A stretch of DNA of 64,000 nucleotides from positions 62,001-126,000 of the forward strand of contig DATMBG010000006.1 in the NCBI GenBank assembly GCA_035559535.1, read 5' to 3'. The DNA comes from Candidatus Limnocylindrales bacterium (lineage in GTDB: Bacteria; Moduliflexota; Moduliflexia; Moduliflexales; JAUQPW01). Below, in pieces: positions 1,282 to 41,048 of the stretch (positions within the stretch are counted from its first letter, which is position 1; every line of letters starts with the position of its first letter). The notes beneath the pieces are model-generated. The model saw only the letters and a list, made by a program, of their open reading frames with translations. It had not been told where the DNA came from and ran no database searches. The position numbers were made by a program, and so were the translations under genes.

Positions 1282-3108
1282 TTACTCTTCCAGCACGTTT
1301 AGGCTTCCAGATAGAAATCCGGCCCGGCAGGCATAATGCTGGATTTTGCCACTGGAGGTTTTAGGAATGCTATTTGCTTTAAGTAGCAATACAGCATGAA
1401 TGTGCATTTCGTGATTTTCTACTACCGCCTGTCGAATGCTCCCAACTATTTCCTTGATGCTCCAACGTCTTAAATCATAGGAATGCTCCAGTTCGGCTAC
1501 AATAACGAGTCGTTCTTCACCATTCTGATCTATGGAAAATGCTGCACAGCAGCCCGGGCGTAAAGCCGGATGGCTCTGTTCCACGGTCTGTTCGATATCT
1601 TGAGGATAATAATTACGACCCCCTAGGATGATCAAATTCTTCAGACGACCCGTGACGAACAGCTCCCCCTTCTTCAAGAATCCTAAATCTCCTGTACGAA
1701 GAAAGGGGCCCTCACCGGTATCTGCCAGATAAGCCTTGAAGGTCTGCTTTGTCTCTTCGGAGCGATTCCAGTAGCCTTGAGCAACGCTGGGTCCTGATAC
1801 CCAAATCTCTCCCACCCGGTCAGGTGAACATAGGGTTAAGGATTCTGGATCGACAATAATAATCTTCTGACCCGGTAAAGATCGACCACACCCTATGAGT
1901 TTTTGGGTATCCTTTGTAGAACTATCGAGAGGGGATGCTTCTACTACCTGGTTCTGTTTTAGAGCAGTTCTCAGAACGCTGAGAACCGTGGGAAGGGTTC
2001 CTTTCAAACCACCGGAAACGATTAAAGTTGCCTCGGCCAGTCCGTAGCAAGGATAAAAGGCTTCTCGACGGAAGCCACAGGGTTCAAAGGCCTCTACAAA
2101 GCGGTCCAGAGTTTCTGCACGAACAGGCTCAGCACCATTGAAAGCCACCTCCCAGCAACTTAAGTCAAGGGTGGCTCGTTGTTCCGGGGTGATTTTCTGT
2201 ACACAGAAGTCGTAGGCAAAATTCGGACCTCCACTGGTAGTAGCTCTGGTACGGGAGATAGCTTGAAGCCATCGAAAGGGGCGTTGTAGAAAGGCAAATG
2301 GCGACATGAGTGTAACCGGAAATCCGCCATAAAGTGGCTGCAGGATACCCCCAGCAAGTCCCATGTCATGGTAAGGTGGCAACCAGATAACTCCCCGACT
2401 CTTGGGAGTATGCCCAAAACATTGATGGATCAGGGTTAAATTGTACAATAGATTACCATGGGTGAGTCTGACTCCCCTGGGCACCCCGGTAGAGCCCGAA
2501 GTGTACTGAAGAAACGCCAGGGCATTACCATCTATCGCCGGATTTTGCCATGCCTCAGCTAAAGTTTCCTGTAAATCCGGCAAAGGTTCATCTTGTTGGA
2601 TGCTGTCCAGGGTCTGTCCCAGGTAGAGTTGAAGAGGGGTCAAGGCATCCAGGGTATCGGTTATTATCCAGTGTAGGTTTTTCAAGAGGGGAGTCGGATC
2701 TAACCAACATCCTATACGGGATAAAATGGATTTCGTGGTAAGTGCCACCGTCGCCTGTGCGTCCTCTGCAATAGCCTGAAGGCGAGACATAGAACGGTTA
2801 AACCTGGGTGGATAAGCCGGAACGGCTATCACACCTGCGTACAGGCAGCCAAAAAATGCGGTAATGTATTCCAGACCCGGTGGATAGAGCAATAGGGCCC
2901 GTTCTCCGGTTACACCTGCATTTTGAAGCCAACCACCTATCATCCGGGCCTTCCGGTCCAGTTCCTCGTAGCTTATCTGAAGTTCTTCTCCTTCCCCATC
3001 AACCAGAAAAGTATAAGCCTTCTGCTGAGGTTGTTGAAGCGCCCTCAAACGGAGAAGATCGACCAGGGTAGAAATTTCGGCAGTAGAATTGAAAGGAAGT
3101 CCCGTCAT
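1282..3108 (-). CDS. Fatty acyl-AMP ligase (FAAL), ANL superfamily
   Basis: This 608-residue protein has the full adenylate-forming fold. It shows the P-loop motif YTSGSTGVPRGV (about 211-222), the FAAL/FACL signature YHDMGLAGGILQPLYGG, FNGAEPV, YGLAEATL, GEIWVSG, and the hinge RTGDLG...GRLKNLIILGGRNYYP. A C-terminal IPKTSSGKIQ lysine motif is present. The HDMG motif and overall length match FAALs, which activate free fatty acids as acyl-adenylates and hand them to an acyl carrier protein. No carrier protein or polyketide synthase is seen in the window. The ATG is the first possible start because a TGA lies in frame six bases upstream; the ribosome binding site is weak. It sits 51 bases after the membrane fusion protein gene, probably in one transcript. 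Confidence 0.9.
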   Translation of the reverse strand: MTGLPFNSTAEISTLVDLLRLRALQQPQQKAYTFLVDGEGEELQISYEELDRKARMIGGWLQNAGVTGERALLLYPPGLEYITAFFGCLYAGVIAVPAYPPRFNRSMSRLQAIAEDAQATVALTTKSILSRIGCWLDPTPLLKNLHWIITDTLDALTPLQLYLGQTLDSIQQDEPLPDLQETLAEAWQNPAIDGNALAFLQYTSGSTGVPRGVRLTHGNLLYNLTLIHQCFGHTPKSRGVIWLPPYHDMGLAGGILQPLYGGFPVTLMSPFAFLQRPFRWLQAISRTRATTSGGPNFAYDFCVQKITPEQRATLDLSCWEVAFNGAEPVRAETLDRFVEAFEPCGFRREAFYPCYGLAEATLIVSGGLKGTLPTVLSVLRTALKQNQVVEASPLDSSTKDTQKLIGCGRSLPGQKIIIVDPESLTLCSPDRVGEIWVSGPSVAQGYWNRSEETKQTFKAYLADTGEGPFLRTGDLGFLKKGELFVTGRLKNLIILGGRNYYPQDIEQTVEQSHPALRPGCCAAFSIDQNGEERLVIVAELEHSYDLRRWSIKEIVGSIRQAVVENHEMHIHAVLLLKANSIPKTSSGKIQHYACRAGFLSGSLNVLEE

Positions 3109-3159: not shown

Positions 3160-5490
3160 CTAATTAATTACATCCTTTATGATCCGAACTTTGTCTCCAT
3201 CCTTCAATAAAGTTTGACCGATGGTCACTACATTTTCGCCTTCATTGATTCCGCTCAAGATTTCCACAAGACCGTCTCCGGCTGACCCCACCTTAACGTA
3301 ACGCAATTGGGCAATGGAATCTGTCCCGACTACAAAAGCACTGGCTTTCCCGGCAGAGTCGACAATGGCTACTTTAGGTACTGTAGGAACGGTGCGAGAG
3401 TTTTGAATTCGAGCAAAGGCGGATAGGCCCGGTTTCAGAATCCGATTGGGATTATCGACCCGAATATGAGCTTTAAAAGTCCGGGTATCTGTATTGGTAT
3501 TTGGCTCGATTTTCACAATTGTGCCTTCCAAAACTTCATTGGGGAGGGAATCTAAAGTTACCTTTGCGGTCTGTCCGAGATGAACCGAAGTTAACTTTTC
3601 TTCGGCGACATTGGCAACGACCATAGCCGGCTGGATATTTCCGATAACCAACAAGCTGGTGCCTCCGGTACCTCCGATAATTTCACCCGGGTTGATATTT
3701 CGTTCGGTAATAACCCCTACGATGGGAGATCGTACAATTGAATTATCCAGGTCATATCGGGCCTTAGCCAGGGCTTGAAGTGCAGTTGTGTAGTTAAATA
3801 TGGCAGAGGTTAAATCTGCCTGGGAAGTAACCTCTTCATTTTTGAGGGCATTTTGGGATTTTAGCAGGTTTTCCAGGGCAGTATAGTAATCGTTCTCGGC
3901 TTGTGCCATGGCCGATTTATTGGTAACCTCTTCATTTTTGAGAGCATCTTGGGCTTTCAAGAGGTTTTCCAGGGCAGTTACATAATCCGATCTGGCCTGA
4001 GTAAGCGTAGAATTATTTGTAAACTCCTCGTTTTTCAAACTATCTTCAACTGTTTTAAGGTTCAGTAAAGCCGTACTATAATCGGCCTGTGCCGCAGCTA
4101 ATGCCGATCTATTGACTACCTCTTCATTGACCAGGGCATGCTGTGCTTTAGCAAGATCTTCTAAGGCCGTTGTATAATCAGATTGAGCCTGGGTAAGGTC
4201 GGCTTTATTGGTTACTTCTTCATTTTTCAACTCCGTTTGAACTGTTTTAAGGTCATATAAGGCCGCACTATAGTTAAACTCCGCCGAGCTTAATTCTGCC
4301 TTATTTGTAATCTCTTCGTTTTTTAAGTTATTCTGAGCGATGATATGATCTTCTAAAGATTTAACATAATTGCTTCGGGCTACGTCCAGGGCATTTTGCG
4401 CCTGCTCAAGGGCTGCTTGAGAGACAACGGATTGGTTGGTTAATTGTTTCTGACGAGCCACGGCGGCTTCACTGACCTGCACGGTGGACTTGCCGGATAT
4501 AACAGATGCTTTGGTGGTTTCCAGATGTGCAACCCACTCATCGTGCCGGGTAGGCTGGGTTTTTTTGGTCTGTTCTAACTTGGCTTTGGTACTCTCTACA
4601 TTGTCCTGGGCCTTTTTAAGATTGGCTAAAAGTTGCTCATGATTGGTAGGTTGGGTTTTTTCCACTTCTTCCAGTTTTGCTTTGGTCTTCTCAACCGTTG
4701 CTTCCGCACTTTTCACCGCGGCAACCAGTTCCTCATGTCCGGTCGCTTGCGTCTGCTTGAGCTCTTCCAACTTAGCTTTATTGCTCTCCACATCATCCTG
4801 GGCTTTTTTAAGATTGGCTAAAAGCTCTTCGTGTTGGGTGGGTTGGGTTTTTTCCACCTCTTCCAATTTTGCTTTGGTCTTCTCAACCATTGCTTCCGCA
4901 CTTTTCACCGCGGCAACCAGTTCCTCATGTCCAGTCGCTTGCGTCTGCTTGAGCTCTTCCAGCTTGGCCCGGGTTTTCTCTACATTTGTCTCGGCACTTT
5001 TCACCGCAGCAACCAACTCCTCATGTTGGGTAGATTGGGTCTGTTTGATTTCTTCCAGCTTGGCCTTTGTCATATTAACCTGCTCCTCGGCGCTTTTTAA
5101 AGCAGAGATTAATAAAGTCTGATCCAGTTCGAACAGAATCTGACCTTCCTCGACATAATCTCCTACATCCACATGGACCGCTTTCACACGGGTTCCTACC
5201 AAAGTTGAAGTAATATGGGCAAAGGATGACGGTTGTACTTCGGCGCTTGCTCCAATCTCCTCGGTGATAGTCGTTACTTTTACCGGATAGACCTTAACGG
5301 GCATGGGAGCTCCTGCCTGACGACTCTTCACAGGATTCGTTTGAATGTCATGCTTCCCGATAGCCCAAAAGATATAAGCCGGAACCAAAAGAATGGTTAA
5401 TAAACTTAAAAGAAGAGAACTCCACTTTAAAAGTTTTAACCATCGAGGGGGTGTTAATTTTACGGATTTATCGTTCATCATATTAACCAC
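3160..5490 (-). CDS. HlyD/RND-type membrane fusion protein with a giant repeat-built coiled-coil hairpin
   Basis: This 776-residue periplasmic adaptor has a single N-terminal membrane anchor (about 22-43), a first lipoyl half (about 65-130), a very long alpha-hairpin (about 131-588), then the second lipoyl half, beta-barrel and membrane-proximal domains. The last part shows SPIVGVITERNINPGE and LPNEVLEGTIVKIEPN. Ordinary adaptors are 350-450 residues, so the excess is all hairpin. The ascending arm is six exact 32-residue repeats (133-324) and the descending arm six more of a different sequence (366-557). The start is unsure: the longest frame begins with GTG, and ATG codons at 5481 and 5478 are likelier. 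No RND pump, ABC transporter or TolC gene lies beside it; its neighbours are a DUF106-like protein and an acyl-AMP ligase. Confidence 0.88.
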   Translation of the reverse strand: MVNMMNDKSVKLTPPRWLKLLKWSSLLLSLLTILLVPAYIFWAIGKHDIQTNPVKSRQAGAPMPVKVYPVKVTTITEEIGASAEVQPSSFAHITSTLVGTRVKAVHVDVGDYVEEGQILFELDQTLLISALKSAEEQVNMTKAKLEEIKQTQSTQHEELVAAVKSAETNVEKTRAKLEELKQTQATGHEELVAAVKSAEAMVEKTKAKLEEVEKTQPTQHEELLANLKKAQDDVESNKAKLEELKQTQATGHEELVAAVKSAEATVEKTKAKLEEVEKTQPTNHEQLLANLKKAQDNVESTKAKLEQTKKTQPTRHDEWVAHLETTKASVISGKSTVQVSEAAVARQKQLTNQSVVSQAALEQAQNALDVARSNYVKSLEDHIIAQNNLKNEEITNKAELSSAEFNYSAALYDLKTVQTELKNEEVTNKADLTQAQSDYTTALEDLAKAQHALVNEEVVNRSALAAAQADYSTALLNLKTVEDSLKNEEFTNNSTLTQARSDYVTALENLLKAQDALKNEEVTNKSAMAQAENDYYTALENLLKSQNALKNEEVTSQADLTSAIFNYTTALQALAKARYDLDNSIVRSPIVGVITERNINPGEIIGGTGGTSLLVIGNIQPAMVVANVAEEKLTSVHLGQTAKVTLDSLPNEVLEGTIVKIEPNTNTDTRTFKAHIRVDNPNRILKPGLSAFARIQNSRTVPTVPKVAIVDSAGKASAFVVGTDSIAQLRYVKVGSAGDGLVEILSGINEGENVVTIGQTLLKDGDKVRIIKDVIN
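3820..4395 (-). repeat. Tandem 96-bp repeats encoding the descending hairpin arm
   Basis: Six consecutive units of exactly 96 bp encode 32-residue repeats, with a conserved LKNEEVTNK-like core at residues 389, 421, 453, 485, 517 and 549 of the adaptor. A degenerate seventh unit follows. The phase never slips. Confidence 0.9.
4519..5094 (-). repeat. Tandem 96-bp repeats encoding the ascending hairpin arm
   Basis: Six units of 96 bp encode repeats of the type KAKLEE..(x)..TQ.T.HEEL. Units 2-5 alternate between two versions (KQTQATGHEELVAAVK and EKTQPTQHEELLANLK), giving a higher-order 192-bp period with near-identical DNA, for example around 4700 and 4892. This suggests recent duplication of unit pairs. 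Confidence 0.9.
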
Positions 5491-5572: not shown

Positions 5573-6490
5573 TTAATCAATTCTTAATAAACCTTTGATC
5601 AGAAAACCAAATCCCAGTGAGACCCCAATAAATACTACCAACCAATCCAAATGCCAGCCTCCCGGTACCTCATTAAAATATCTGGGAAGATAATTAATCC
5701 GGATTACTTCAATCCAGGGATTCTCAGGAAGAGGGGTTTCATAAGGGTTATAGAAAGCCGAGAGAAACCCTTCTTGCCTTAGCTCCGGAACTATTTTCAA
5801 TTCGTGGGTTACTCCCAAGTTTATCGCCTCTGATTTCACTTCATCTGAAGGCGAAGATAAGATATTAAGATGGGTCCCTGGATTATCCGAGGCCAGCCCT
5901 TCTATGACCACCTGTTTACTGAACGTCTGGCCAAGCAACTGGAATTGGAGTGAATATTCTCCGGCTTTTTTCGCCTTGAGCCGCCAGTTAATTTCCCTTT
6001 CTTCTTCCAGACGTAGAGGTGGGGTCTCCACTTCAATGGCTTCTGGAGCTTTGAGAGTAATATCCAGGTCCAGAGGAGATTTTCCGGCTACCGTCTTGAC
6101 GGTTACAATAAAAGACTCCTCCGGTCTAAAACTTCTATATCCGTAGCGCGCATTCAGGGGTACTAGGATAAAGATAATAAGGAAAATGAGAACGAGTCCA
6201 GGTTTCAAGGAAAGGCCCATATATTTAAAATTATTCCATAGAATCTTTTTCTGGGCTAAAAGCATCTGAGTAAGATCCTCCTTATAAACCCGGATCTCCA
6301 TAAAATGGATTTTAATCTGATTCTTAACCTTTCGGATGGCTTCCTGATTAGAGGTAAATCGGTAAATTAAAACCATTAAAGTCCCCATCAGGATAGAAAT
6401 AGCCGTTAGTCCTATGATGGGATGAAATCGATGAAAGGGTATGAGAAGGATTTGTAATAGAGAATCGGATATATTTAATAGGGTTCGCAT
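5573..6490 (-). CDS. DUF106/Oxa1-superfamily-like membrane protein with extracytoplasmic domain
   Basis: This 305-residue protein has a first membrane segment (about 25-43), a basic amphipathic or coiled stretch (45-85), a second membrane segment (about 93-112), a beta-rich extracytoplasmic domain (about 118-270, with APEAIEVETPPLRLEEE) and a C-terminal membrane segment (about 279-300). The order TM, coiled coil, TM resembles DUF106/EMC3/TMCO1 members of the Oxa1 insertase superfamily. I make that assignment by eye and it is tentative. No catalytic motif is visible. It starts two bases after the stop of the 64-aa gene, which implies translational coupling, and it precedes the adaptor gene. 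A helper role in assembling envelope proteins is an inference only. Confidence 0.6.
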   Translation of the reverse strand: MRTLLNISDSLLQILLIPFHRFHPIIGLTAISILMGTLMVLIYRFTSNQEAIRKVKNQIKIHFMEIRVYKEDLTQMLLAQKKILWNNFKYMGLSLKPGLVLIFLIIFILVPLNARYGYRSFRPEESFIVTVKTVAGKSPLDLDITLKAPEAIEVETPPLRLEEEREINWRLKAKKAGEYSLQFQLLGQTFSKQVVIEGLASDNPGTHLNILSSPSDEVKSEAINLGVTHELKIVPELRQEGFLSAFYNPYETPLPENPWIEVIRINYLPRYFNEVPGGWHLDWLVVFIGVSLGFGFLIKGLLRID

Positions 6491-6806: not shown

Positions 6807-8861
6807 CTAGAAAATAGGTTTTCCTTCCATTTCTTGACTCTCCAATCCAAATTCCTTTAAGATCGTCGGAGCGATATCGATGAGTCCCGGGTGGGTCGAT
6901 TGGATCTTCTTATTGGTCAGAATGAGACCCGGCACCAGTTCCGCCGCCATGCAATGGTCGCCGCTCCATTTTTTTCTGTTTTCTCCCAAAAGTTCCTGGG
7001 GAACTTTTCCTAAAGCCGTTTCCCAGGAAGCCCGATAACCCCGGTCATAGCCTATAATTAAATCGGGAGTCGTTCGAGGATCATACCCCGAATAAATCTC
7101 CTCAGCTCGATAAACCCTTTTAATAATAGGTCTCTGGTTTTCAGGATCTTTAACTTCCAGGAGTTTTTGGCTGAGTTCCTTAATCAGTTTTTCTCTCTGT
7201 AAAGTGGGTTCTATAATGCCTTGGCTTTCACGACCCCTTAAATTGAGATAAAGACTGTTGAGACCTAAGGCGTAAGCTTTTGTACCCAACCAATCTATAT
7301 TCTCGAAAAACTCATCACTTTCCTTTCGGGCTGGATCCAGGAATTTCATATATCCATTCTGAACCAGCCAGGTATTCAAATTAAAAAACTTATAGAACGG
7401 GGCAAAGCCATGATCCGACACGACGATAAGGGTAGTATCCGAATCTAACCGGCTCATGGTCGTGGCTAAGATATCATCCATGTGTTTGTAAACAAATCGG
7501 ATTACATCTTTTTCAGCGGGGGGGAAGGATCCATCTTCCCTGGAGGAATACATGGGATGTTGGGGATCCCTGTAGCGCCAGAACATATGTTGAAGAAGAT
7601 CGGTGGAGGAGAAGTAGGCAAAGAGTAGGCCGTCTTTAAAACGTTCCAACTCAAATCGGTAAATTTTAAGCTGGTCTTGCATGACGAACTTACTTTGCTG
7701 GAGAAACTCCGCATCACTCAAACGGTTTTCGTTCAATGCCCAGGTATCCTCTGCGATTCCCTGGGTATAAAAACGTCCTATAGATTTTGCTAGCTGAGCG
7801 GAATAATCTGCCGGCGTTGAGATGGGAAAAGGAGGTTCCAGGGGATCGATATTCAGGGGGGAAACATACAATTCAAACTCAGGATGAACCTGTTTAAGAT
7901 AGAATCGGCAAATACCTACAATTTTGGAGAAAGGGGCCAGCTTAAATTCAACCCGAATCCAATCACTCCATTCTCCTTCTTTTAGAAGGATTTCCTGATC
8001 TTGTACTACAAACTTAGCAACAGGGTTTACGGGATCTACCTTTACAGTAAATTCTGTTTCGACAGGGGGGGCATCTTTTTTAAAGAGATTACTCGGACCG
8101 ATCAGGGTAGACCGAATCTCCTGGCCTTTCTTGTCTACATGGTAAATCTCGCCGCTGGTAACCTTCCCCTCCTCCTTGGGTTTTGTGGTATAGAAGGAAA
8201 AAGTTCCATAGGTCCCCCGGATATCCGGAGTGCCCATTCCAGAGAGAGACCTGGCTTTACTTTGTACAGGAGGAAAATTTACCGGAATTCGCAGAACTGT
8301 GGAAGGGATATTATGCTCGCTCAGGATTTCCCAAAAAGCTTTTCCTTTCCTGAGGAGTTCTGTTTTAACATTGGAAAGGGGGATGACCCAATTTCCCAGG
8401 CTTATTTTCTTTTCCGGTGCCCGGACCCGGGCCATGGAAAAAAATGGAATATACTGTTCTGGATCCCGAGAAATAAAGTCGTAAATGTTGTGTTTACCCG
8501 GATTTAATCCGGTAATGAAGGTAGACCAGGCTACCGGGCTCTGAGGAGGAACGGTAGTGGCCAGGGGTAAAAAATCTCCCTGTTCCCTGAGAGCCTGAAA
8601 GTGAGGAAGATCTCCCTCTTTTATAAATTCATCCAATAAAGCCGGGTCCATTCCATCAAATCCAAGCACCAGAACCTTTTTTGAAGGTCCTGGGAGCGCA
8701 GATGCCGTGCCTGTCAGGACCTGTCTCTTCTTCGCGAGACGTACGGGTCGATGGCCATCGACCCGTACATCTCGGTTTACATCCATGAAAAAAATCCCGA
8801 GAAGAGCAAACAGGCAGACAAAATAGCCTATGCCAGTCAGTAGAAGCTTAAATCGAGTCAA
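6807..8861 (-). CDS. Membrane-anchored AlkP-superfamily phosphohydrolase (COG3379-like), paralogue 1
   Basis: This 684-residue protein has one N-terminal membrane segment (about 5-27). An alkaline-phosphatase/type I phosphodiesterase fold follows, with metal motif VLVLGFDGMDP (64-73), nucleophile region SPVAWSTFITG (108-118), LQHMFW, and VVSDHGF. The catalytic residue is probably the Ser/Thr pair in AWST. It is full-length and closely similar to the 727-aa protein encoded upstream (shared GICRFYLK, EDTWALNE, KAYALGL, GDHCM). The family cleaves phosphate mono- or diesters; in an envelope locus the substrate may be a lipid- or glycan-linked phosphate, which is inference. Residues 31-42 (DVRVDGHRPVRL) are encoded by a 40-bp palindrome and have no evident structural reason. 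Confidence 0.85.
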   Translation of the reverse strand: MTRFKLLLTGIGYFVCLFALLGIFFMDVNRDVRVDGHRPVRLAKKRQVLTGTASALPGPSKKVLVLGFDGMDPALLDEFIKEGDLPHFQALREQGDFLPLATTVPPQSPVAWSTFITGLNPGKHNIYDFISRDPEQYIPFFSMARVRAPEKKISLGNWVIPLSNVKTELLRKGKAFWEILSEHNIPSTVLRIPVNFPPVQSKARSLSGMGTPDIRGTYGTFSFYTTKPKEEGKVTSGEIYHVDKKGQEIRSTLIGPSNLFKKDAPPVETEFTVKVDPVNPVAKFVVQDQEILLKEGEWSDWIRVEFKLAPFSKIVGICRFYLKQVHPEFELYVSPLNIDPLEPPFPISTPADYSAQLAKSIGRFYTQGIAEDTWALNENRLSDAEFLQQSKFVMQDQLKIYRFELERFKDGLLFAYFSSTDLLQHMFWRYRDPQHPMYSSREDGSFPPAEKDVIRFVYKHMDDILATTMSRLDSDTTLIVVSDHGFAPFYKFFNLNTWLVQNGYMKFLDPARKESDEFFENIDWLGTKAYALGLNSLYLNLRGRESQGIIEPTLQREKLIKELSQKLLEVKDPENQRPIIKRVYRAEEIYSGYDPRTTPDLIIGYDRGYRASWETALGKVPQELLGENRKKWSGDHCMAAELVPGLILTNKKIQSTHPGLIDIAPTILKEFGLESQEMEGKPIF
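8735..8774. repeat. 40-bp palindrome inside a coding region (GTACGGGTCGATGG family)
   Basis: GTACGGGTCGATGG and its exact complement meet with no loop at 8741-8768. The arms extend to 8735-8774 with one mismatched pair. The element lies in frame inside the 684-aa hydrolase gene. A second copy lies at 8926-8953. Confidence 0.9.
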
Positions 8862-9023
8862 TAGTTTGCCGTCTGTTATCCGTTGTCTGTAATAGCTCCA
8901 GAGACCCAGAAAACATGGAGATAAAGTACGGGTCGATGGTCATCGACCCGTACGTTTTATTTCTCCCCAGGTTCTCTGACTCTTTGTGGCCAAGCACAAC
9001 AAACAATGGGCAACGGACGCCTG
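8862..9023. repeat. Nested palindromic elements between two hydrolase genes
   Basis: The outer arms carry CCGTCTGTTATCCGTTGTC and ACAAACAATGGGCAACGGAC (the 'caacgga' family). The centre (8926-8953) holds a second copy of the 28-bp GTACGGGTCGATGG palindrome, flanked by ATAAA/TTTTAT. One palindrome family is thus nested in another. Confidence 0.75.
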
Positions 9024-11207
9024 TCAAAACAGCGATTTTCCATCAAAATAAGGCGGAACTTCAACTCCTAAGGATTTTAAAATGGTTGGAGCAATATCGA
9101 CAATATGGGGAGATGTTGTCCGAACAGGTCGATTGCAGAAAAGAACTCCCGGGACCAATTGAGGATCCATACAGTGATCTCCACCCCAGGCTTTTTCGTT
9201 ATTTTTAAAGACCTGCTCATCTAACCTTCCGGTTACTGATTCCCAGGAAGCCCGATATCCTTTATTATATCCGATGATGAGATCGGGAGCATTCTCCATG
9301 TAGGGACCCGAGTAAACCTCCCGGCTATCATAAACTCTCCGGATAGCAACCTCACCGGTTTCCTCATCCTTCAAGCCTGTGAGTTTCATGCTCAATTCTT
9401 TCTTCAACTCCTCAAACTCTCTCCCGGGTTTCACAATTCCCATGGCTTCCCGCCCTTTCAGGTTGATATATAGGCCTGCCAGGCCTAAAGCGTATGCCTT
9501 GGTTCGACTCCAATCTACCCGTCTCAGCCAATCATTCCCCCTACTTCCGGTGTTTTCTTCCAGAAACAGATAACCATTCTGATATAACCAGGTATTCAGA
9601 TTAACCCCACGTTGGAACCGGCTAAATCCATGATCGGACATAACCAGAAGAAGGGTCTTCTCATCAACCTTTTCCATTACCCGCCCCAGCAGATCATCCA
9701 TACGCTTATAAAGGTCCGGTATGACACCTGTAAGGGAGTGGGAGAGTGGGGGGGTATGGGAGTATGGAGGTGGGGGAGTATGGAAGTGTGGAAGTATGGA
9801 AGTGTGGGGGTGTAGGGGAGATTCGCCTATACTCCCATACTCCCTCCCCTCCATACTTTCTTTCTTCCAATACTTCCAGAACATGTGCTGAATCCGATCG
9901 GTTGTATCGAAAACACATACACATAGACCTTTTCGAATTTTCTCTAATTCGTGAAAGAGCATCTTCTCCCGCTCTTCATGGATCAGGTAAGCCTGTTCCA
10001 GAAAAGCTTTTTCATCCAGTGCCCCTTCGTTTAAGGCCCAGGTATCCTCGGCGAGTCCTAAGGTCGTATAACTTCCGATTACTTTAGCCAGGTAGATGGA
10101 GTAGATAAAGGGATATGATATGGGAAGGGCCGGATTTTCGGGGTCGATGTTGATGGGGGAGAGATAGAGTCCAAATTCCGGGAAGATACTTTTGAGATAA
10201 AACCGACAGATCCCGTAAACTTTCATTCCCAGACCTAATTTGAAGGTGAGGCGAACCCAGGGAGAATATTGTCCTTTTTTGAGCCGAAGCTTCTGACCTG
10301 AAACTTCCAGTTCAACCTCTTCTGAATCTTTATAGATGGTAATGAAAAGGGGCAGTTTGATTTCGGTGCGTTTCTTAAGGATTGGATTTTCCGGTCCTTC
10401 AATAAAGGTTCGGATTTTGTTTTCTACGATTTCTACTTTAAAAAATCTTCCTTCGGTGTGCCCTTCAAGTTCATCCTGGCTGGTTGTATAGTAGGAAAAG
10501 GTGCCTTGCGAGCCTCTTAGATCGGGTACCCCCATAGCCGATAACACACGGCCTGCAAACTTTTCCGGCGGAAAGGTAATGGGAACCCGCAGAATAGAAC
10601 TGGAAATACCTTTTTCCCCGAGGATATTCCAAAAGGGTTTTCCTTTCCGCAGAAGTTTAATTTGAGGTCTTCCCAAAGGAATCACATACTTTCCCAGGGA
10701 GAGGGTTCTGGAAGGTCCTCCAATATGAGCTGAAGAAAGGTAGGGAAGATAGGTTTTGCGATCGCGGCTCAAGAAATCAAATATATTATGTCTTCCCGGA
10801 TTGACTCCCGTGATAAAGGAAGACCAGGCAACCGGGGATATGGAAGGGGTAGTCGTCTGAAGTCGGTGATAGCTCCCCATCTCTTTGAGTTTTGAAAAAT
10901 TTTTGAGATGTCCTTGTTCCATGAGCTCTTCCACCGTAGAGGGGTCCATACCATCCAATCCGATCACAATAACCCGATCGATATCACTTTTAACATAGCC
11001 TTTTTTCCTTTTCAATTTGATTAAAACAAGCCTTACAGGCAACAGGATAAGGGCCAGTAAAGCTAAAAGAAAGGTAGCCAACAAAATAAAAAAGGAACTA
11101 AAAAAGGCAAACCCAGCTCCCGGGCCAATATAGGCAGAGGCTATGGAAGGTAAACCCAGCAAAGCCACTATAAACAGATAAAATATAATGAGGCTTTTTT
11201 TCATCAT
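9024..11207 (-). CDS. Membrane-anchored AlkP-superfamily phosphohydrolase (COG3379-like), paralogue 2
   Basis: From ATG 11207 this is 727 residues. The open frame runs 120 bases further upstream but would overlap the preceding gene, and the chosen N-terminus MMKKSLIIFYLFIVALLG looks like a signal or anchor. After IASAYIGPGAG a second hydrophobic stretch follows (LLATFLLALLALILLP). Catalytic-fold motifs are VIVIGLDGMDP, SPVAWSSFITGVNPGRHNIFDF, IQHMFW, VMSDHGF and GGDHCM. It is a paralogue of the 684-aa protein downstream. About 35 residues in the middle (EYGSIGE then SPLHPHTSILPHFHTPPPPY) are encoded by an inserted palindromic GTATGGGAGTATGG repeat and replace a short loop (DPQHPMYSSREDG) of the paralogue. 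Substrate unknown. Confidence 0.85.
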   Translation of the reverse strand: MMKKSLIIFYLFIVALLGLPSIASAYIGPGAGFAFFSSFFILLATFLLALLALILLPVRLVLIKLKRKKGYVKSDIDRVIVIGLDGMDPSTVEELMEQGHLKNFSKLKEMGSYHRLQTTTPSISPVAWSSFITGVNPGRHNIFDFLSRDRKTYLPYLSSAHIGGPSRTLSLGKYVIPLGRPQIKLLRKGKPFWNILGEKGISSSILRVPITFPPEKFAGRVLSAMGVPDLRGSQGTFSYYTTSQDELEGHTEGRFFKVEIVENKIRTFIEGPENPILKKRTEIKLPLFITIYKDSEEVELEVSGQKLRLKKGQYSPWVRLTFKLGLGMKVYGICRFYLKSIFPEFGLYLSPINIDPENPALPISYPFIYSIYLAKVIGSYTTLGLAEDTWALNEGALDEKAFLEQAYLIHEEREKMLFHELEKIRKGLCVCVFDTTDRIQHMFWKYWKKESMEGREYGSIGESPLHPHTSILPHFHTPPPPYSHTPPLSHSLTGVIPDLYKRMDDLLGRVMEKVDEKTLLLVMSDHGFSRFQRGVNLNTWLYQNGYLFLEENTGSRGNDWLRRVDWSRTKAYALGLAGLYINLKGREAMGIVKPGREFEELKKELSMKLTGLKDEETGEVAIRRVYDSREVYSGPYMENAPDLIIGYNKGYRASWESVTGRLDEQVFKNNEKAWGGDHCMDPQLVPGVLFCNRPVRTTSPHIVDIAPTILKSLGVEVPPYFDGKSLF
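9733..9862. repeat. 'GTATGGGAGTATGG' palindromic repeat translated in frame
   Basis: A G-rich tandem arm (period about 10) is followed by a C-rich complementary arm (ATACTCCCATACTCCC). It lies wholly inside the 727-aa hydrolase gene without breaking the frame. The same family is intergenic at 13.1, 22.3 and 40.7 kb and intragenic at 31.7 kb. Confidence 0.85.
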
Positions 11208-11231
11208 TTTGTTTTTGTTGGTTGAAATGTA

Positions 11232-11260
11232 AGCTAGCATGTAACTCCAGGGGGTGTCAA
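11232..11260 (-). promoter_or_regulatory. Possible sigma-70-type promoter before the 727-aa hydrolase
   Basis: A perfect TTGACA (11255-11260, minus sense) lies upstream of the gene. The matching -10 (CTAGCT or TAGCTT) is poor, so this is a weak call. Confidence 0.3.
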
Positions 11261-11802
11261 GATTGAAATTTTTTACCGCCCCAGTGTATGACCAGAAAAA
11301 GGATAATACCAAATAAGATGGTTTCAAAGGCGATGGTTTCCCAATTGATTATAGACCATATTCCCAATTTAAAATCTACAGAAGGAAGTAAGGCCATAGG
11401 GGAGGTATATTTTTTAGTGATCCAGGGATAAAATATAGCGATCCCCTGTCCGCTCCGGTGCCCCAATTCATCTCCGCAAAAAAAGTCCATAAAGCCATGG
11501 GAGAAGATGAGGATAAAATACCGGAAAATTTTTTGTAATCTCTGTTCGATGGGAGAAAAAAAGCTCAGGGTCACGGCCAGCAGGAGGGCAAAAAAGGGAC
11601 TATGGGTAAAAGTCCTATGGATGGCATGCCGGTCCCCATAGACCCAAATCCCTGCCAGCATATCTATATCCGGTAAATTGGCCAGCGTCACGGCCGTCAG
11701 GATCTCCCATTTTTGTTCCCATACCTGCCCCCACCGTTTATAAGGATTCCACAAAAAGTAGAGACTCAGGCCTGCCAGAGAATGACCTACCGGTGATGAC
11801 AT
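11257..11802 (-). CDS. YdjM/DUF457-like membrane-bound metal-dependent hydrolase
   Basis: From ATG 11802 this is 181 residues. The frame extends to a TTG at 11841 but the N-terminus MSSPVGHSLAG is the typical family start. Features are an early GHSLAG histidine motif, LANLPDIDML (DxD-type metal site), HRTFTHSPFF (the conserved HR..THS motif) and SHGFMDFFCGDE. Four hydrophobic segments are visible (about 55-70, 90-108, 115-130, 155-178). The family comprises polytopic, probably zinc-dependent hydrolases of unknown or varied substrates, including the LexA-regulated YdjM of E. coli. It lies between the glycosyltransferase and hydrolase genes on the same strand. Confidence 0.8.
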   Translation of the reverse strand: MSSPVGHSLAGLSLYFLWNPYKRWGQVWEQKWEILTAVTLANLPDIDMLAGIWVYGDRHAIHRTFTHSPFFALLLAVTLSFFSPIEQRLQKIFRYFILIFSHGFMDFFCGDELGHRSGQGIAIFYPWITKKYTSPMALLPSVDFKLGIWSIINWETIAFETILFGIILFLVIHWGGKKFQS

Positions 11803-13080: not shown

Positions 13081-13160
13081 GAGGGGTATGGGAGTGGGAA
13101 AGTATTAGGAGAATATACTCCCATACTCCCATACCCCCCTGCCCCCATACCCCCACACTC
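13081..13160. repeat. 'GTATGGGAGTATGG' palindromic repeat
   Basis: GAGGGGTATGGGAGTGGG is followed by ATACTCCCATACTCCCATAC and related C-rich units, forming an imperfect hairpin in the gap between the SDR and glycosyltransferase genes. Confidence 0.75.
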
Positions 13161-14118: not shown

Positions 14119-15215
14119 CTCCCAATGGAATCGACTACATATCTGGCCTCTTCATCTGTCAGGGTATAATAGATCGGAGGACAGATATGCCTTTTAGCCA
14201 GATCTTCCGAAACAGGCAGACTTTCTGTTGCATAATCTTTAAAAACCGGTTGTAAATGGCAGGGAACTTCATAAACGTACCCTCCCATGGTCACGTTATA
14301 ATCTGCCTTCATTTTTTTATGGAATAAATCTCGATCTACCCCTGGGGGAAGGAAAGCTATATATTTGTAGAAATTGTGTCGGACATTGGCAGGAACTTTC
14401 AAAGTACTAATCTGAGGGATTTCACGGAATTTCTCATCATAAATTTTAGCAATTTCATTTCTTCGTTGAATAAACGAATCCAGTTCACTTAACTGAGCAA
14501 GTCCCAGAAGGGCTTCTACTTCCGGCATCCGCCAGTTATATCCGAACTCCCGATGGTAATTGGTGTTATTGATCTTCGCATGATTCCTCAGGAGCAAAGC
14601 CCGGTTATAAATATCCGGATCGTTGGTGGTAACCATTCCGCCTTCCCCCGTCGTCATAACCTTGGTTGAGAAAAAAGAAAATCCTGCTGCGATCCCTAAG
14701 GTTCCTGCTTTTCTGCCATCCAGAGCGCTCCCATGGGCATGGGCAGCATCTTCGACCAGGAGGAGTCCTTTTTCCTTACAAAGGTCCATGAGTTCATAGG
14801 TATGGGGAGAGACAAGTCCTCCGATGTGAACGGTAATAATGACCTTGGTCTTCGGAGTTAAGCGCTTTCGCACATCCTCAGGATCTACAGTCATATCCGA
14901 GGTACAATCTGCAAAAATCGGTCGACCTCCCGCACTTATTACTGTATAGGCTGTGGCGGCGAAGGTCATCGTAGGGACGATGACATCATAATCTTTCACG
15001 CCGATGGCCCGAAGGATAATCTCTAAAGCTGAAGTTCCACTATTACAACTAACGGCAAATTTAGTTCCTATATAACTGGCAAAGCTTTTCTCAAAGTTCT
15101 CTCCATGCTTATACATGGAGAGAAAAGACTTTCCTTCTAAAATCTCTCGAAAATGGGTCAGAATAAACTCAATACTAGAAGGTGAAAAATAAGCTTTCGT
15201 TGCAGCTATCTTCAT
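14106..15215 (-). CDS. DegT/DnrJ/EryC1/StrS-family PLP aminotransferase
   Basis: This 369-residue sugar aminotransferase has SCNSGTSAL (phosphate-binding, about 56-64), the pyridine-nitrogen aspartate in VEDAAHAHGS (D156) and the Schiff-base lysine in FFSTKVMTTGEGG (K185). The C-terminal YEVPCHLQP and LPVSEDLAKRHICPPIY motifs are typical of the family. These enzymes convert keto-sugar nucleotides to amino sugars. A strong ribosome binding site (TTAAGGAGAT) sits seven bases before ATG. The next gene (SDR) overlaps its end. The pair suggests an amino-sugar in an envelope glycan. Confidence 0.9.
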   Translation of the reverse strand: MKIAATKAYFSPSSIEFILTHFREILEGKSFLSMYKHGENFEKSFASYIGTKFAVSCNSGTSALEIILRAIGVKDYDVIVPTMTFAATAYTVISAGGRPIFADCTSDMTVDPEDVRKRLTPKTKVIITVHIGGLVSPHTYELMDLCKEKGLLLVEDAAHAHGSALDGRKAGTLGIAAGFSFFSTKVMTTGEGGMVTTNDPDIYNRALLLRNHAKINNTNYHREFGYNWRMPEVEALLGLAQLSELDSFIQRRNEIAKIYDEKFREIPQISTLKVPANVRHNFYKYIAFLPPGVDRDLFHKKMKADYNVTMGGYVYEVPCHLQPVFKDYATESLPVSEDLAKRHICPPIYYTLTDEEARYVVDSIGRCLA

Positions 15216-15385
15216 GTGGTAGATCTCCTTAAAAATGTCGGTTTAGCTTACTCTCGTATCAGAAACAGCCAAAATCGAATCTGGGAAAAAAGGTTTTCTT
15301 AACCTGTGTGTTAGACGACCTGATAATCGACCTGCTTTAAGAACTAGCAATATACATACCATCCTGCGATAAGATAACTCCCCAC

Positions 15386-17116
15386 CTATTCAATGTATCC
15401 CATTCCCTTAAGTCTTTCGCTGATCTCAAGGGTTTCTTCATCCGAGTAAGTGTCTACATCGGTTTTTTCCCATCCACCTCCTCCTACCTGACGGGTGCGA
15501 ATAGGATTTTTCAGCCGGTAGGTATCCTGAAAAGCTTCCATCAGAACCCTTCCTTCTAAATCATCTGGAACCGGTACACCTAACAGATAGAGTATGGTGG
15601 AAGGAAGGTCTATAATGCGAGCTCCCTGAAGAGGAAAATTACGCTTGATCATGGGTCCCACCATCATAAGAATTCCTTGATCTCGATGGCTTCCTGTACG
15701 ACCCGAGAAAAACTTAGGCTCACCGGGGGAATCCGGTTTCAACCGCGTAATCGGAGCTCGATCTTTAGAGTAGTAACTGGATCTACTTTGGTAAGAATAT
15801 CCCCGATCCAGACTCCACTTGATTAAGAGATCTGGAGCCCTATGAACGTATTTACCCTGATAAACTTCTTCCCGTGTATAAACCTCTTCCACCACAGGTT
15901 GTTGAGTTTCAGGATCCTTCCACGCCTTCAGGAGCCGGATCACCCGTTGACGGATCTTTTCGTATTCCTCTCCCGGTTCGACAATTCCTTCCGGTTCTCT
16001 CCCTTTCAAATTGATCCAAATCGTCGGGTAGTAAGGTGTTTCTTCAGAATAAGCCAGGGTATTCTTCCAATCTATGGCAGAGAAGCGTAGCCAGGATTCC
16101 ATTTTATTAACGATGTGGGTTCTTCGACGAAAAAGCTCTTTCTTAATGCGTGGAGGGATAGTTTTAAGGCCCCAATGCTTAGCCCAATTCAAGACTTTAG
16201 AAAATATACTTTGGAAAGAGGTTTTCTCACTGGAAGCGCGAAATTTGAGAAGTCCTATGCTTTCCAACCATCGATTCAGGTAAATGACCTTGTCTCCGGC
16301 CCCACCGAATCCGTGATCTGACATAAGAATAACCACGGTGTCTTCGGATATCATGCCGGTCAGTTCTCCAATAATACGATCCAGGGTCTGATAGACGGTG
16401 AGAACGGCTTTGGCACATTCCGGTGATTCATGGGGGTCGTGGAGAGGTGAGTTCGGATCGTGATACTTCCAGTAGTGATGGCCGATCAAATCCGATTCTC
16501 CAAACAAAATCATGAAGCAGTCCCAAGGTTCTCGCTGCAAAAGGTATTTCGCAGTTGCCGCTTTCCGTTCAATGGTCTTCAAAATAACGGGGAGTGCTTC
16601 TGCCGGGCGGCCTTCATTCATATATTTCATGATATCTGCCGAAATGATATAGCCTCCGATACTTCGTTTCAGCTCTTCGTAGAGTTCCGGAGGATACATA
16701 GAAGTAGGATCGGCCTCCGAAGCCACTCCCGGAGCATCAAAGCCACAAATCATAACCCCGTTAATTTCTTCAGGCGGATAAGTGACCGGTACTGCCACCA
16801 CCCCAACACGCTTACCTGCTTCGCTGAGGATCTTCCAGATGGTTTTGCTCTGCCGACGTTTGGCATTGACGAACTCTATCTCGTAACTTCCCGGTTTACG
16901 CTCGGTAAAATCAAAAATACCATGATTCCCCGGGTTTTTCCCGGTCATAAAGGTTGTCCATGCCGGAAAAGTCATGGGAGGAAAGGTCGATTGTAATTCC
17001 CCATAGGATCCACGCTCCATAATTCTGGCTAAATTGGGCAATTTGCCTTCAGCCGCCCAAGGCCGGATTAAGTCGAAGGTTCCTCCATCGAGACCGATAA
17101 TAAGTATCTTGTTCAT
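15386..17116 (-). CDS. Soluble AlkP-superfamily phosphohydrolase/phosphomutase (COG3379-like)
   Basis: This 576-residue protein has no signal peptide or anchor. Metal and nucleophile motifs are ILIIGLDGGTFD (4-15), FPAWTTFMTGKNPGNHGIFDF (about 50-70), GHHYW and LMSDHGFGG. It differs from the two anchored paralogues by its cytoplasmic start, a GSHRDQGI segment near the C-terminus and the extra tail ISERLKGMGYIE. That tail is nearly the same as that of the 64-aa protein at 6493-6687. The ATG follows a CAGGAGGCG ribosome binding site. Substrate unknown; the family hydrolyses phosphoesters or transfers phosphate. It sits between a PfkB-type kinase and a sugar aminotransferase, which hints at sugar-phosphate metabolism. 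Confidence 0.85.
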   Translation of the reverse strand: MNKILIIGLDGGTFDLIRPWAAEGKLPNLARIMERGSYGELQSTFPPMTFPAWTTFMTGKNPGNHGIFDFTERKPGSYEIEFVNAKRRQSKTIWKILSEAGKRVGVVAVPVTYPPEEINGVMICGFDAPGVASEADPTSMYPPELYEELKRSIGGYIISADIMKYMNEGRPAEALPVILKTIERKAATAKYLLQREPWDCFMILFGESDLIGHHYWKYHDPNSPLHDPHESPECAKAVLTVYQTLDRIIGELTGMISEDTVVILMSDHGFGGAGDKVIYLNRWLESIGLLKFRASSEKTSFQSIFSKVLNWAKHWGLKTIPPRIKKELFRRRTHIVNKMESWLRFSAIDWKNTLAYSEETPYYPTIWINLKGREPEGIVEPGEEYEKIRQRVIRLLKAWKDPETQQPVVEEVYTREEVYQGKYVHRAPDLLIKWSLDRGYSYQSRSSYYSKDRAPITRLKPDSPGEPKFFSGRTGSHRDQGILMMVGPMIKRNFPLQGARIIDLPSTILYLLGVPVPDDLEGRVLMEAFQDTYRLKNPIRTRQVGGGGWEKTDVDTYSDEETLEISERLKGMGYIE

Positions 17117-22287: not shown

Positions 22288-22384
22288 AATGAAAGTAGGG
22301 GAGTATGGGAGTGTAGGAGTATAGGAGAGTCCCACTCCCATACTCCCATACTTCCCTACTCCCATACTCCCACCCCTACACTCC
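22288..22384. repeat. 'GTATGGGAGTATGG' palindromic repeat
   Basis: A G-rich arm (GGGGAGTATGGGAGTGTAGG) and a C-rich arm of several ACTCCCAT units form a hairpin filling almost the whole gap between the MetE-like start and the MLE-like stop. Confidence 0.8.
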
Positions 22385-31157: not shown

Positions 31158-32212
31158 CAGGCCAGTACCTCCCCAGAAGTAAGTCCCCGATCTGCTCCAG
31201 GTTCTAGCTCCTTGGATACCTGATAAGATCGAAGTGTTAAAATTAGGCTGGTTGCCAGAATGGCTGCACCTACCGTCACATGCAGGGTTGTAGGAAGCAC
31301 CGCCTTAAATGTCCAGATTGTAAAGGCTCCCAGCGCGATTTGTAGAATCAAAAGCCCTATCAACAGTAATCCTGGACGAAGTAAGAAAGATTCTTGGCGA
31401 TGCTGTCGAATAATATGGATCACGGTCCAGCTAATACAGAGCGTAACCAGCAGAGCCCCCAACCGATGTAGATAGTGAATCAGAACCGCCGAAGATTCCA
31501 AAGGTGGTACGAGCCGACCAAAGGCCAGCGGAAAATCCGGGATTGCAAGGCCGGCACCCATATGGCGCATAATAGCACCTAAAATGAGTTGGACATAAAT
31601 AACGGCTGTTGTCAAAGCACCTAACCGGGTTAGGGAGAGAGCAGAGATGTGGGGGTGTGGATGAGTCTTCACCTCTGCACCTTCATACTCCCATGCTCCC
31701 ACACGCCCATACTTTCTTTCTCCGGTACTCCCATACTTCCCTCCTCCCTTACTATCTTTTCCCCAGTTTGGGTTCGTGAAAACGGCCAGGGCTATGGTTA
31801 AACAGAAAAAGGCTTGTGCGAGACAGGCATGGGCTACGGAGACCGAAGTGGGTAGCTTGAGGAGAACCGTAATGCCGCCGAGAAGGCCTTGCAGGATAAT
31901 GGCCAGTAGGGCTATAAGTCCAAGCCGTCGAACCCATCTTCTGGATTCTTGCCAGTAAATCCAGATAGCTAATAGCGTCATAAGAAATCCAACCAGCGTA
32001 GCAGCCATACGATGGCCGTGTTCAAATAACACGCCACCTTCCATGGGAGGAAAGAACTGTCCAAAGGAGAGAGGCCAATCTGGAACGGCCAGACCCGAAC
32101 CCGTACTGGTAACCAGACCTCCTATAAAGATCAATATAAAAGTGGCTCCTGCCGTTAAAACCGCAAATCGATGAAGCCAGATGTTATTCACTTTGCCTGT
32201 TTGCTTAATCAA
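31157..32212 (-). CDS. ctaA: Heme A synthase with a translated repeat insert
   Basis: This CtaA/COX15 protein is up to 351 residues with eight membrane segments in two homologous halves. Heme-ligand histidines lie in FEHGHRMAATLVG and VAHACLAQAFF (first half) and in IHYLHRLGALLVT and TLHVTVGAA (second half). It oxidises heme O to heme A. The longest frame opens with TTG at 32212; GTG at 32191 (then NNIWLHRFAVL), preceded by AGGCAAA, may be the real start. Between the two halves about 35 residues (KYGSTGERKYGRVGAWEYE then KTHPHPH) are encoded by a palindromic repeat of the 'GTATGGGAG' family. The insert falls in the interdomain loop, where it may be tolerated. Confidence 0.92.
   Translation of the reverse strand: MIKQTGKVNNIWLHRFAVLTAGATFILIFIGGLVTSTGSGLAVPDWPLSFGQFFPPMEGGVLFEHGHRMAATLVGFLMTLLAIWIYWQESRRWVRRLGLIALLAIILQGLLGGITVLLKLPTSVSVAHACLAQAFFCLTIALAVFTNPNWGKDSKGGGKYGSTGERKYGRVGAWEYEGAEVKTHPHPHISALSLTRLGALTTAVIYVQLILGAIMRHMGAGLAIPDFPLAFGRLVPPLESSAVLIHYLHRLGALLVTLCISWTVIHIIRQHRQESFLLRPGLLLIGLLILQIALGAFTIWTFKAVLPTTLHVTVGAAILATSLILTLRSYQVSKELEPGADRGLTSGEVLA
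31640..31755. repeat. 'GTATGGGAG' palindromic repeat translated in ctaA
   Basis: Units ACTCCCATGCTCCCACACGC and GTGGGGGTGTGG form an imperfect hairpin wholly inside ctaA. The reading frame is kept and the G-rich arm is read first, as in the hydrolase gene at 9.8 kb. Confidence 0.85.
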
Positions 32213-40643: not shown

Positions 40644-41048
40644 AAAAGTGTGGGGGTATGAAAGTATGGAAGGATATCCTTCCACACTCCCATACCCCCA
40701 CACTCCCATACTCCTATATCCCCTCCACTTCTATCGGGTTAAAGCCTACTATTTCGAATAATAGTTATCTCTCCGACATTTGACATTGTTTGATAGCCGG
40801 GTGTAAGGTAGAAGATCCAACATTTTCTCAGAGGTTACTTAAAAAAGCATTTTTTACCCCTTCAGAGGTTTTGTTCTACCTCTAGGGGGTCTTCCTTTCT
40901 GTAAGCTGTCCTCGTTATAGGGCAGAGGAATAGACTTTGCAAAAAGTAATAACTGAGTCTCCGATAAGCATCTCTAGGGTTAGGAGAAAGTCCTCGAGGG
41001 TTTCTTTAGAAGTTTTATTTTTAAAAATATGGGAGGAGAGATAAATAT
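40644..41048. other. Intergenic gap with one palindromic repeat
   Basis: At 40648-40720 GTGTGGGGGTATGAAAGTAT is followed by complementary ACTCCCATACCCCCACACTC units ('GTATGGGAG' family). The remainder up to the GGGAGGAGAG site at about 41030 holds no gene I can see. Confidence 0.6.
40648..40720. repeat. 'GTATGGGAG' palindromic repeat after dprA
   Basis: Two complementary arms of about 30 bases lie five bases after the dprA stop and could act as a terminator. Confidence 0.75.

Follow-up and report, generated by a model that had tools for sequence, protein, structure and literature searches.

The question raised by this locus is whether two blocks of 32-residue repeats in one membrane fusion protein are the paired arms of a single alpha-hairpin and, if so, how the arms came to match and what so long a hairpin might be for. 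The protein (776 residues) is encoded by the ORF at 3160-5490 on the minus strand of the window (the whole 64,000-nucleotide stretch of DNA analysed here), of which the start codon is GTG. We consider it probable that it is an RND/ABC-type adaptor with a giant paired hairpin and that it would link an inner-membrane pump to a TolC-type channel. The parts of the protein and the two adjoining genes are listed in Table 1.

The adaptor and its two repeat arrays

The assignment to the membrane fusion proteins, as made in the original prediction, was borne out by three profiles over their cut-offs, namely PF16576 (HlyD_D23; 84.2 bits, cut-off 30) and PF13437 (HlyD_3; 62 bits, residues 586-688) of Pfam and TIGR01730 (RND_mfp; 172.3 bits, cut-off 94.9, best stretch 517-770) of NCBIfam; the match of PF13533 (residues 101-123) was under its cut-off. 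The NCBIfam models for EmrA (TIGR00998; 72.5 vs 390.8 bits), DevB (TIGR02971; 67.8 vs 129 bits) and type I HlyD all scored under their cut-offs, and the relatives with solved structures in PDB were mostly RND adaptors (6vej, ZneB, MexJ, CusB, MexA and AcrA). The halves of the lipoyl domain bracket the alpha-hairpin (GDYVEEGQILFELD at 110-123 and RSPIVG from 587, with helices between). At the sequence level, an RND-type membrane fusion protein, with the two repeat blocks as its putative hairpin arms, is thus supported.

Table 1. Parts of the adaptor and its two co-directional neighbours (positions in the window)
Feature	Position	Strand	Basis
Membrane fusion protein / periplasmic adaptor, 776 aa	3160..5490	-	PF16576, PF13437 and TIGR01730 over cut-off
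N-terminal membrane anchor, hydrophobic, ~residues 20-44, KLLKWSSLLLSLLTILLVPAYIFWAIG	5359..5433	-	Sequence; helix 17-50 (low-confidence full-length model)
Lipoyl (barrel-sandwich) domain, first half, residues 96-124, with GDYVEEGQILFELD	5119..5205	-	Alignments; sub-cut-off PF13533
Arm 1, six 32-aa units, residues 126-317	4540..5115	-	TRF, self-identity, DNA unit comparison
Arm 1, tip-proximal, non-repeated, residues 318-345	4456..4539	-	Helix in fragment model
Hairpin tip, RxxxLxxxxxxS (R346, L350, S357)	4420..4455	-	Motif; loop 353-357 in model
Arm 2, tip-proximal, residues 358-395	4306..4419	-	Helix in model
Arm 2, six 32-aa units, residues 396-587, last unit weak	3730..4305	-	TRF, self-identity, DNA unit comparison
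Second lipoyl half, beta-barrel and membrane-proximal domain, residues 588-776	3163..3729	-	HlyD_3, TIGR01730, PDB relatives
305-aa membrane protein, upstream gene	5573..6490	-	Sister counterpart L032:3255-4172
Fatty acyl-AMP ligase type, downstream gene	1282..3108	-	Sister counterpart L032:6642-8549

The repeats had originally been placed at residues 133-324 and 366-557 (positions 3820-5094, minus strand), and these coordinates, the 32-residue period and the copy number were right. Self-identity of the protein at lag 32 was 0.54 on arm 1 and 0.49 on arm 2 (in the shuffled controls, n = 1,000, no lag of any size gave more than 0.22), and the 96-bp period, together with a 192-bp super-period, was independently recovered with TRF, the repeat-finder check that had been proposed. 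The units had also been called exact, which holds for the 32-residue spacing, this being exact and phase-perfect, but the units themselves are similar rather than identical; amino-acid identity was 50-94% among the six units of arm 1 and 28-72% among the seven frames in which arm 2 can be read (364-587; the first and the last are the weakest). A degenerate seventh frame is present on arm 1 at 318-349. The DNA likeness at a 192-bp step, noted originally for one arm, was confirmed in units U3 and U5 of arm 1, which are 92% identical, and the DNA identity of the arm-2 units was at most 73%. The comparison of arm-1 with arm-2 units gave a score of 4.6, not above the permuted controls (mean 5.3).

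The host bacterium is related to hot-spring lineages. A MAG of the same genus (G001, locus L034, JAUQPW010000137.1) encodes a 776-residue adaptor with six plus six units and 97% identity to the window protein; thus, the repeats in the window are not an artefact of one assembly. Among the genomes searched (a few hundred), the adaptor is known from these two species only. No relative was found at E <= 1e-35 in 193 genomes of another phylum or at 1e-30 in two small phyla (searches with no internal positive control), and the scan of contigs by short peptide patterns was sensitive to close relatives only. Large adaptor frames of other genomes (617-891 aa) were considered as candidate long-repeat adaptors and rejected, since they were over-extended frames of ordinary genes or contained extra domains or linkers.

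Arm lengths, periodicity and pairing

Arm 1 was taken as the stretch between the first lipoyl half and the R of the tip motif, and arm 2 as that between the S of this motif and the second half of the lipoyl domain. The census covered adaptors of the genome of the window, of its order-mates and of some dozens of unrelated genomes; these were the best-scoring matches, not a random sample. When an adaptor has multiple possible tips, picking the tip that gives the difference nearest to 9 is biased, so that the count was restricted to adaptors with exactly one strict tip motif (n = 24, the window protein included). Arm 2 was longer than arm 1 by 9 residues in 19 of the 24, over arm-1 lengths of 22, 29, 36, 50, 55, 81 and 221 residues. 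With five exceptions (two at -2, one at 10, one at 8 and one false tip), the offset is a strong but not an absolute rule, and it offers a simple check usable on any adaptor. The arms of the window adaptor (221 and 230 residues) fit this family rule to the residue, as the claim that the arm lengths match would have it, and subtraction of the common 29/38 hairpin leaves 192 and 192 residues, that is, 6 x 32 on each arm; the count of six and six therefore holds as the exact excess over the common hairpin size. With 221 residues in arm 1, the hairpin is by far the longest among the adaptors compared here and in the cited papers; the next tip-bearing adaptors have an arm 1 of ~81-91 residues, apart from its own paralogue at 113 (see below).

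MacA, AcrA and MexA bind TolC through an established motif, RxxxLxxxxxxS (PMC3391258), which is intact in the window adaptor, with R346, L350 and S357. The hydrophobic periodicity peaked at 3.565 residues on one arm and at 3.56 on the other, equal to 32/9, and both peaks were higher than in all 500 shuffles. At the heptad value of 3.5, the power was 0.02 and 0.01, so the hairpin is not built of plain heptads. This is not disqualifying for the RND-type family, in which heptads are usual rather than required; EmrA also has stutters (PMC4158417). A period of 32/9 corresponds to nine core positions per unit, namely heptads with one stutter. When the two arms were overlaid in antiparallel orientation, hydrophobic coincidence was best at registers one unit (32 residues) apart (0.36, 0.29 and 0.34), and the centre of the middle register falls on residue 354, within the tip motif (346-357).

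The full-length AlphaFold model (4-sequence alignment; pLDDT 45) was too poor to use, and pairing outside residues 254-460 therefore rests on sequence periodicity. An alignment of 25 whole adaptors misplaced the short hairpins along the long arm and was replaced by tip-anchored fragments. With an alignment of 18 such hairpins, the fragment 254-460 was predicted as helix, loop (353-357) and helix, with a mean pLDDT of 92.2 and a pTM of 0.66. A Foldseek search with the fragment model returned antiparallel coils, including a Thermotoga chemoreceptor (TM 0.61), EmrA (4tko; 0.41) and HlyD (5c21; 0.30-0.35); no match reached E 0.001, and the TM-scores are modest, as is usual for simple coils. Most likely, the two repeat blocks pair with each other as hairpin arms. 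The 221- and 230-residue arms would then run antiparallel in a two-stranded coiled coil, ~33 nm (~330 A) long at the ~1.5 A rise per residue of EmrA and ending in a normal TolC-docking tip.

Whether such an arm is straight is a separate matter. TQPT or TQAT stretches stand at the ends of arm-1 units, where they could act as hinges, and proline or glycine occurs at several arm-1 unit borders. An arm with kinks at the TQPT/NEEVT unit borders might fold back or wrap around the channel or the pump, and its reach would then be much less than 33 nm. This reading would account for the borders with proline or glycine and for the breaks in the AlphaFold models (279-281 in the good fragment model; 212-217 and 311-316 in the full-length model of low confidence), and it has a precedent in the hairpin of CusB, which folds back (PMC4446572). 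However, the core period of 32/9 is uniform on both arms, the arms match to the residue, and the fragment model, a confident one, shows the TQPT stretch at 311-317 as helix; we regard a folded or segmented arm as unlikely.

Change in the arrays

A second long adaptor of the host genome (L031:268-1947; 559 aa) is 44% identical to the window adaptor in the alignment. Each of its arms consists of three units and a remainder (17 and 26 residues, respectively), and the difference is again 9. Its tip is degenerate and proline-rich (SKSSEPAPAEF), with the TolC motif not kept, and the position of the tip is therefore less certain. In the sister species, the orthologue of this paralogue (L033:7176-8741; 521 aa) combines an arm 1 of two units with the same three-unit arm 2; its arms of 81 and 122 residues differ by 41, which is 9 + 32. 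In the DNA, the additional unit is a tandem duplication of 96 bp, of which the copies differ at ~3 sites, and each paralogue unit differs at 6-7 sites between the species. The simplest reading of these sequences is that the L031 paralogue gained a unit on one arm after the species split, which would have given the arms the usual offset; it is also possible that the copy is older and was gene-converted, or that the array was collapsed in the sister assembly. The paralogue pair appears to catch a one-arm, one-unit step.

In the window gene, U3 and U5 were alike at 88 and 86 of 96 bp within the two genomes and at 84 and 85 between the species. This suggests that arm 1 has undergone concerted evolution, and nothing like it was seen on arm 2. 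The supposition that the arms must have grown in step was not supported, in view of the 3+3 and 2+3 paralogues and of concerted evolution on arm 1 only. Unequal unit numbers among orthologues had been named as a refuting observation: the single known orthologue of the window gene has 6+6, but the unequal 2+3 in the orthologous pair of the paralogue is formally such a case. The data agree better with separate changes on the two arms under a preference for pairing.

We propose that an ordinary 29/38 hairpin gained six 32-residue coiled-coil units per arm, in the region from the lipoyl domain to the tip. Whole units would be duplicated in tandem, on a single arm in each event, and equal unit counts would be favoured by selection for complete pairing of the hairpin; because the unit has the same 32 residues and nine core positions on both arms, a gain on one arm could be compensated by the other with the register kept. 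Since its modular units are equally long on the two arms, this adaptor offers a system for studying how two separate arrays keep register during evolution.

The same observations bear on the reading that the array grows by unequal exchange, that only paired variants fold and that the length itself is functionless. Homogenisation of U3 and U5 within the gene, beyond the identity between species, and the one-unit difference on one arm of the paralogue would both be expected from it. Two points go against it: 6+6 is kept in both species at 97% identity, and the arm-2 units are old, as judged by their DNA, yet phase-perfect. We consider such neutral expansion somewhat unlikely.

Neighbouring genes, candidate pumps and possible reasons for the length

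The order of the 305-aa membrane protein, adaptor and fatty acyl-AMP ligase genes is conserved in the sister species. The 305-aa protein had no match in Pfam or NCBIfam; its layout (TM, charged coil, TM) is one that we take to recall insertases of the EMC3/TMCO1 type. Farther downstream are desaturases, P450, ketosynthase, a TonB-dependent receptor-like gene and three genes of the lipid A acyltransferase type (L029:6779-7774, 7802-8932 and 14776-15756; two assigned by Pfam and the third by the resemblance of its start). The genes of the lipid A acyltransferase type, together with the acyl-AMP ligase, ketosynthase, P450 and desaturases, possibly form a cluster for unusual envelope lipids.

Four type I phosphodiesterase genes (PF01663) were also found in the window (6807-8861, 9024-11327, 15386-17116 and 57062-58735), two of them in tandem directly upstream of the adaptor genes. 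Octamer minisatellites of the ACTCCCAT type are dispersed in the window (9756-9846, 13117-13140, 22297-22373, 31687-31742 and 40686-40717), with 15 two-unit matches (up to 2 mismatches) against 0.06 expected; one run lies inside the phosphodiesterase ORF at 9024-11327 and encodes a SPLHPHTSILPHFHTPPPPYSHTPPLSHS insert.

Among the annotated near neighbours, no RND, ABC-exporter, MFS or TolC gene was found for the window adaptor, and no RND, ABC-exporter or MFS gene for its paralogue, from which one ABC ATPase is ~7 kb away. The other adaptors examined in the host genome mostly adjoin their own RND or ABC genes. Two RND genes of this genome (L113 and L114; G000:C32:66430-69450 and G000:C37:146368-149493) have no adaptor-like ORF within ~4 kb on either side, and a gene sized like the latter is present in the sister genome. 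That these two unpaired pumps partner the two unpaired long adaptors is attractive but unproven. In the reading that we prefer, the adaptor would be anchored in the inner membrane and would link a pump encoded elsewhere, for which the two RND pumps are the candidates, to a TolC-type channel, perhaps for export of a product of the neighbouring lipid genes.

Alternatively, the protein might be a tether between the inner and outer membranes, or a strut for lipid transfer, that lost its pump. Neither long adaptor adjoins a pump gene, unlike most of the others examined in the host genome, and the fatty acyl-AMP ligase, desaturases, P450, ketosynthase and lipid A acyltransferase-like genes nearby make or modify lipids, as this idea would suggest. 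It is made improbable by the intact TolC tip motif, by the RND_mfp profile over its cut-off and by the two RND pumps of the host genome that have no neighbouring adaptor.

The length of the hairpin was originally explained as a ruler for an unusually wide periplasm. Models of tripartite assemblies span 170-225 A of periplasm (PMC4158417), and a straight 33-nm hairpin with its pump and channel would be longer than this; if the long arm stands upright, the assembly would exceed 40 nm. The explanation requires a periplasm at least 40 nm wide, whether in the organism as a whole or in a special region of its envelope, and a repeat number selected to fit it. The ~33-nm hairpin, the tip motif intact for TolC docking and the same unit number in two species are consistent with it. 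However, adaptors of the host genome with arms of 36-55 residues stand beside RND or ABC pumps and could not bridge such a gap, the further adaptors of the sister genome (up to 81/90) are also too short for it, and the paralogue is half as long and differs in unit number between the sister species. Because such ordinary adaptors adjoin pumps, the periplasm is unlikely to be wide throughout; the envelope may instead have a special zone, the arm may be tilted or folded, or its length may be functionless. We therefore hold a ruler of this kind to be quite improbable. Equally doubtful is its stronger form, a natural yardstick in which a straight, two-stranded 33-nm arm of interchangeable 32-residue units would bridge an envelope gap far wider than the span of any known tripartite pump, the unit number being tuned to the gap by gains and losses that occur on one arm at a time and compensate each other. 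In any case, the giant hairpin is a system for asking whether the length of an adaptor must fit the periplasm.

With the RND and ABC adaptors (AcrA, MexA, MacA and ZneB), the window adaptor shares the domain order, the RxxxLxxxxxxS tip, the membrane-proximal domain (by profile) and the matched arms; it differs in the length of the hairpin (~330 A against 47-67 A in ordinary adaptors, for example 58 A in AcrA and 47 A in MexA; PMC4158417), in repeats of 32 rather than 7 residues and in the lack of an adjoining pump gene. EmrA of Aquifex aeolicus (4tko), of which the N-terminal arm of 84 residues and 127 A was termed exceptionally long (PMC4158417), likewise has a long hairpin of two strands, the heptads of which are interrupted by stutters, but is ~2.6 times shorter and has neither tandem 32-residue units nor a membrane-proximal domain. 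The likeness to DevB-type adaptors, which serve in the export of heterocyst glycolipids, is that of an adaptor near genes for long-chain lipids; unlike DevB, the window adaptor scores under the cut-off of TIGR02971 and has no ABC genes of the DevCA type nearby. Length variants of Lpp in E. coli are likewise discussed as a case in which the length of a coiled coil sets the width of the periplasm, but Lpp is an unrelated protein, and its 21 additional residues were engineered, in contrast to the natural repeats of the window adaptor (PMC8824477). A YbhG-like adaptor of the sister genome (L027, G001:C58), encoded next to an ABC gene, has arms of 81 and 90 residues (difference 9) with one internal period of 26 residues common to both; it comprises only about two to three units, weakly above shuffles, and its GPRPEEI-like motif is similar on both arms, whereas the units on the two arms of the window adaptor are not detectably related. 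Adaptor coils are known to lengthen and shorten through heptad insertions in both helices (PMC4446572), and, with the 26-residue period of the YbhG-like adaptor, this places the window adaptor at the extreme of a known trend. The giant hairpin is a striking exaggeration of a known part, not a new kind of machine.
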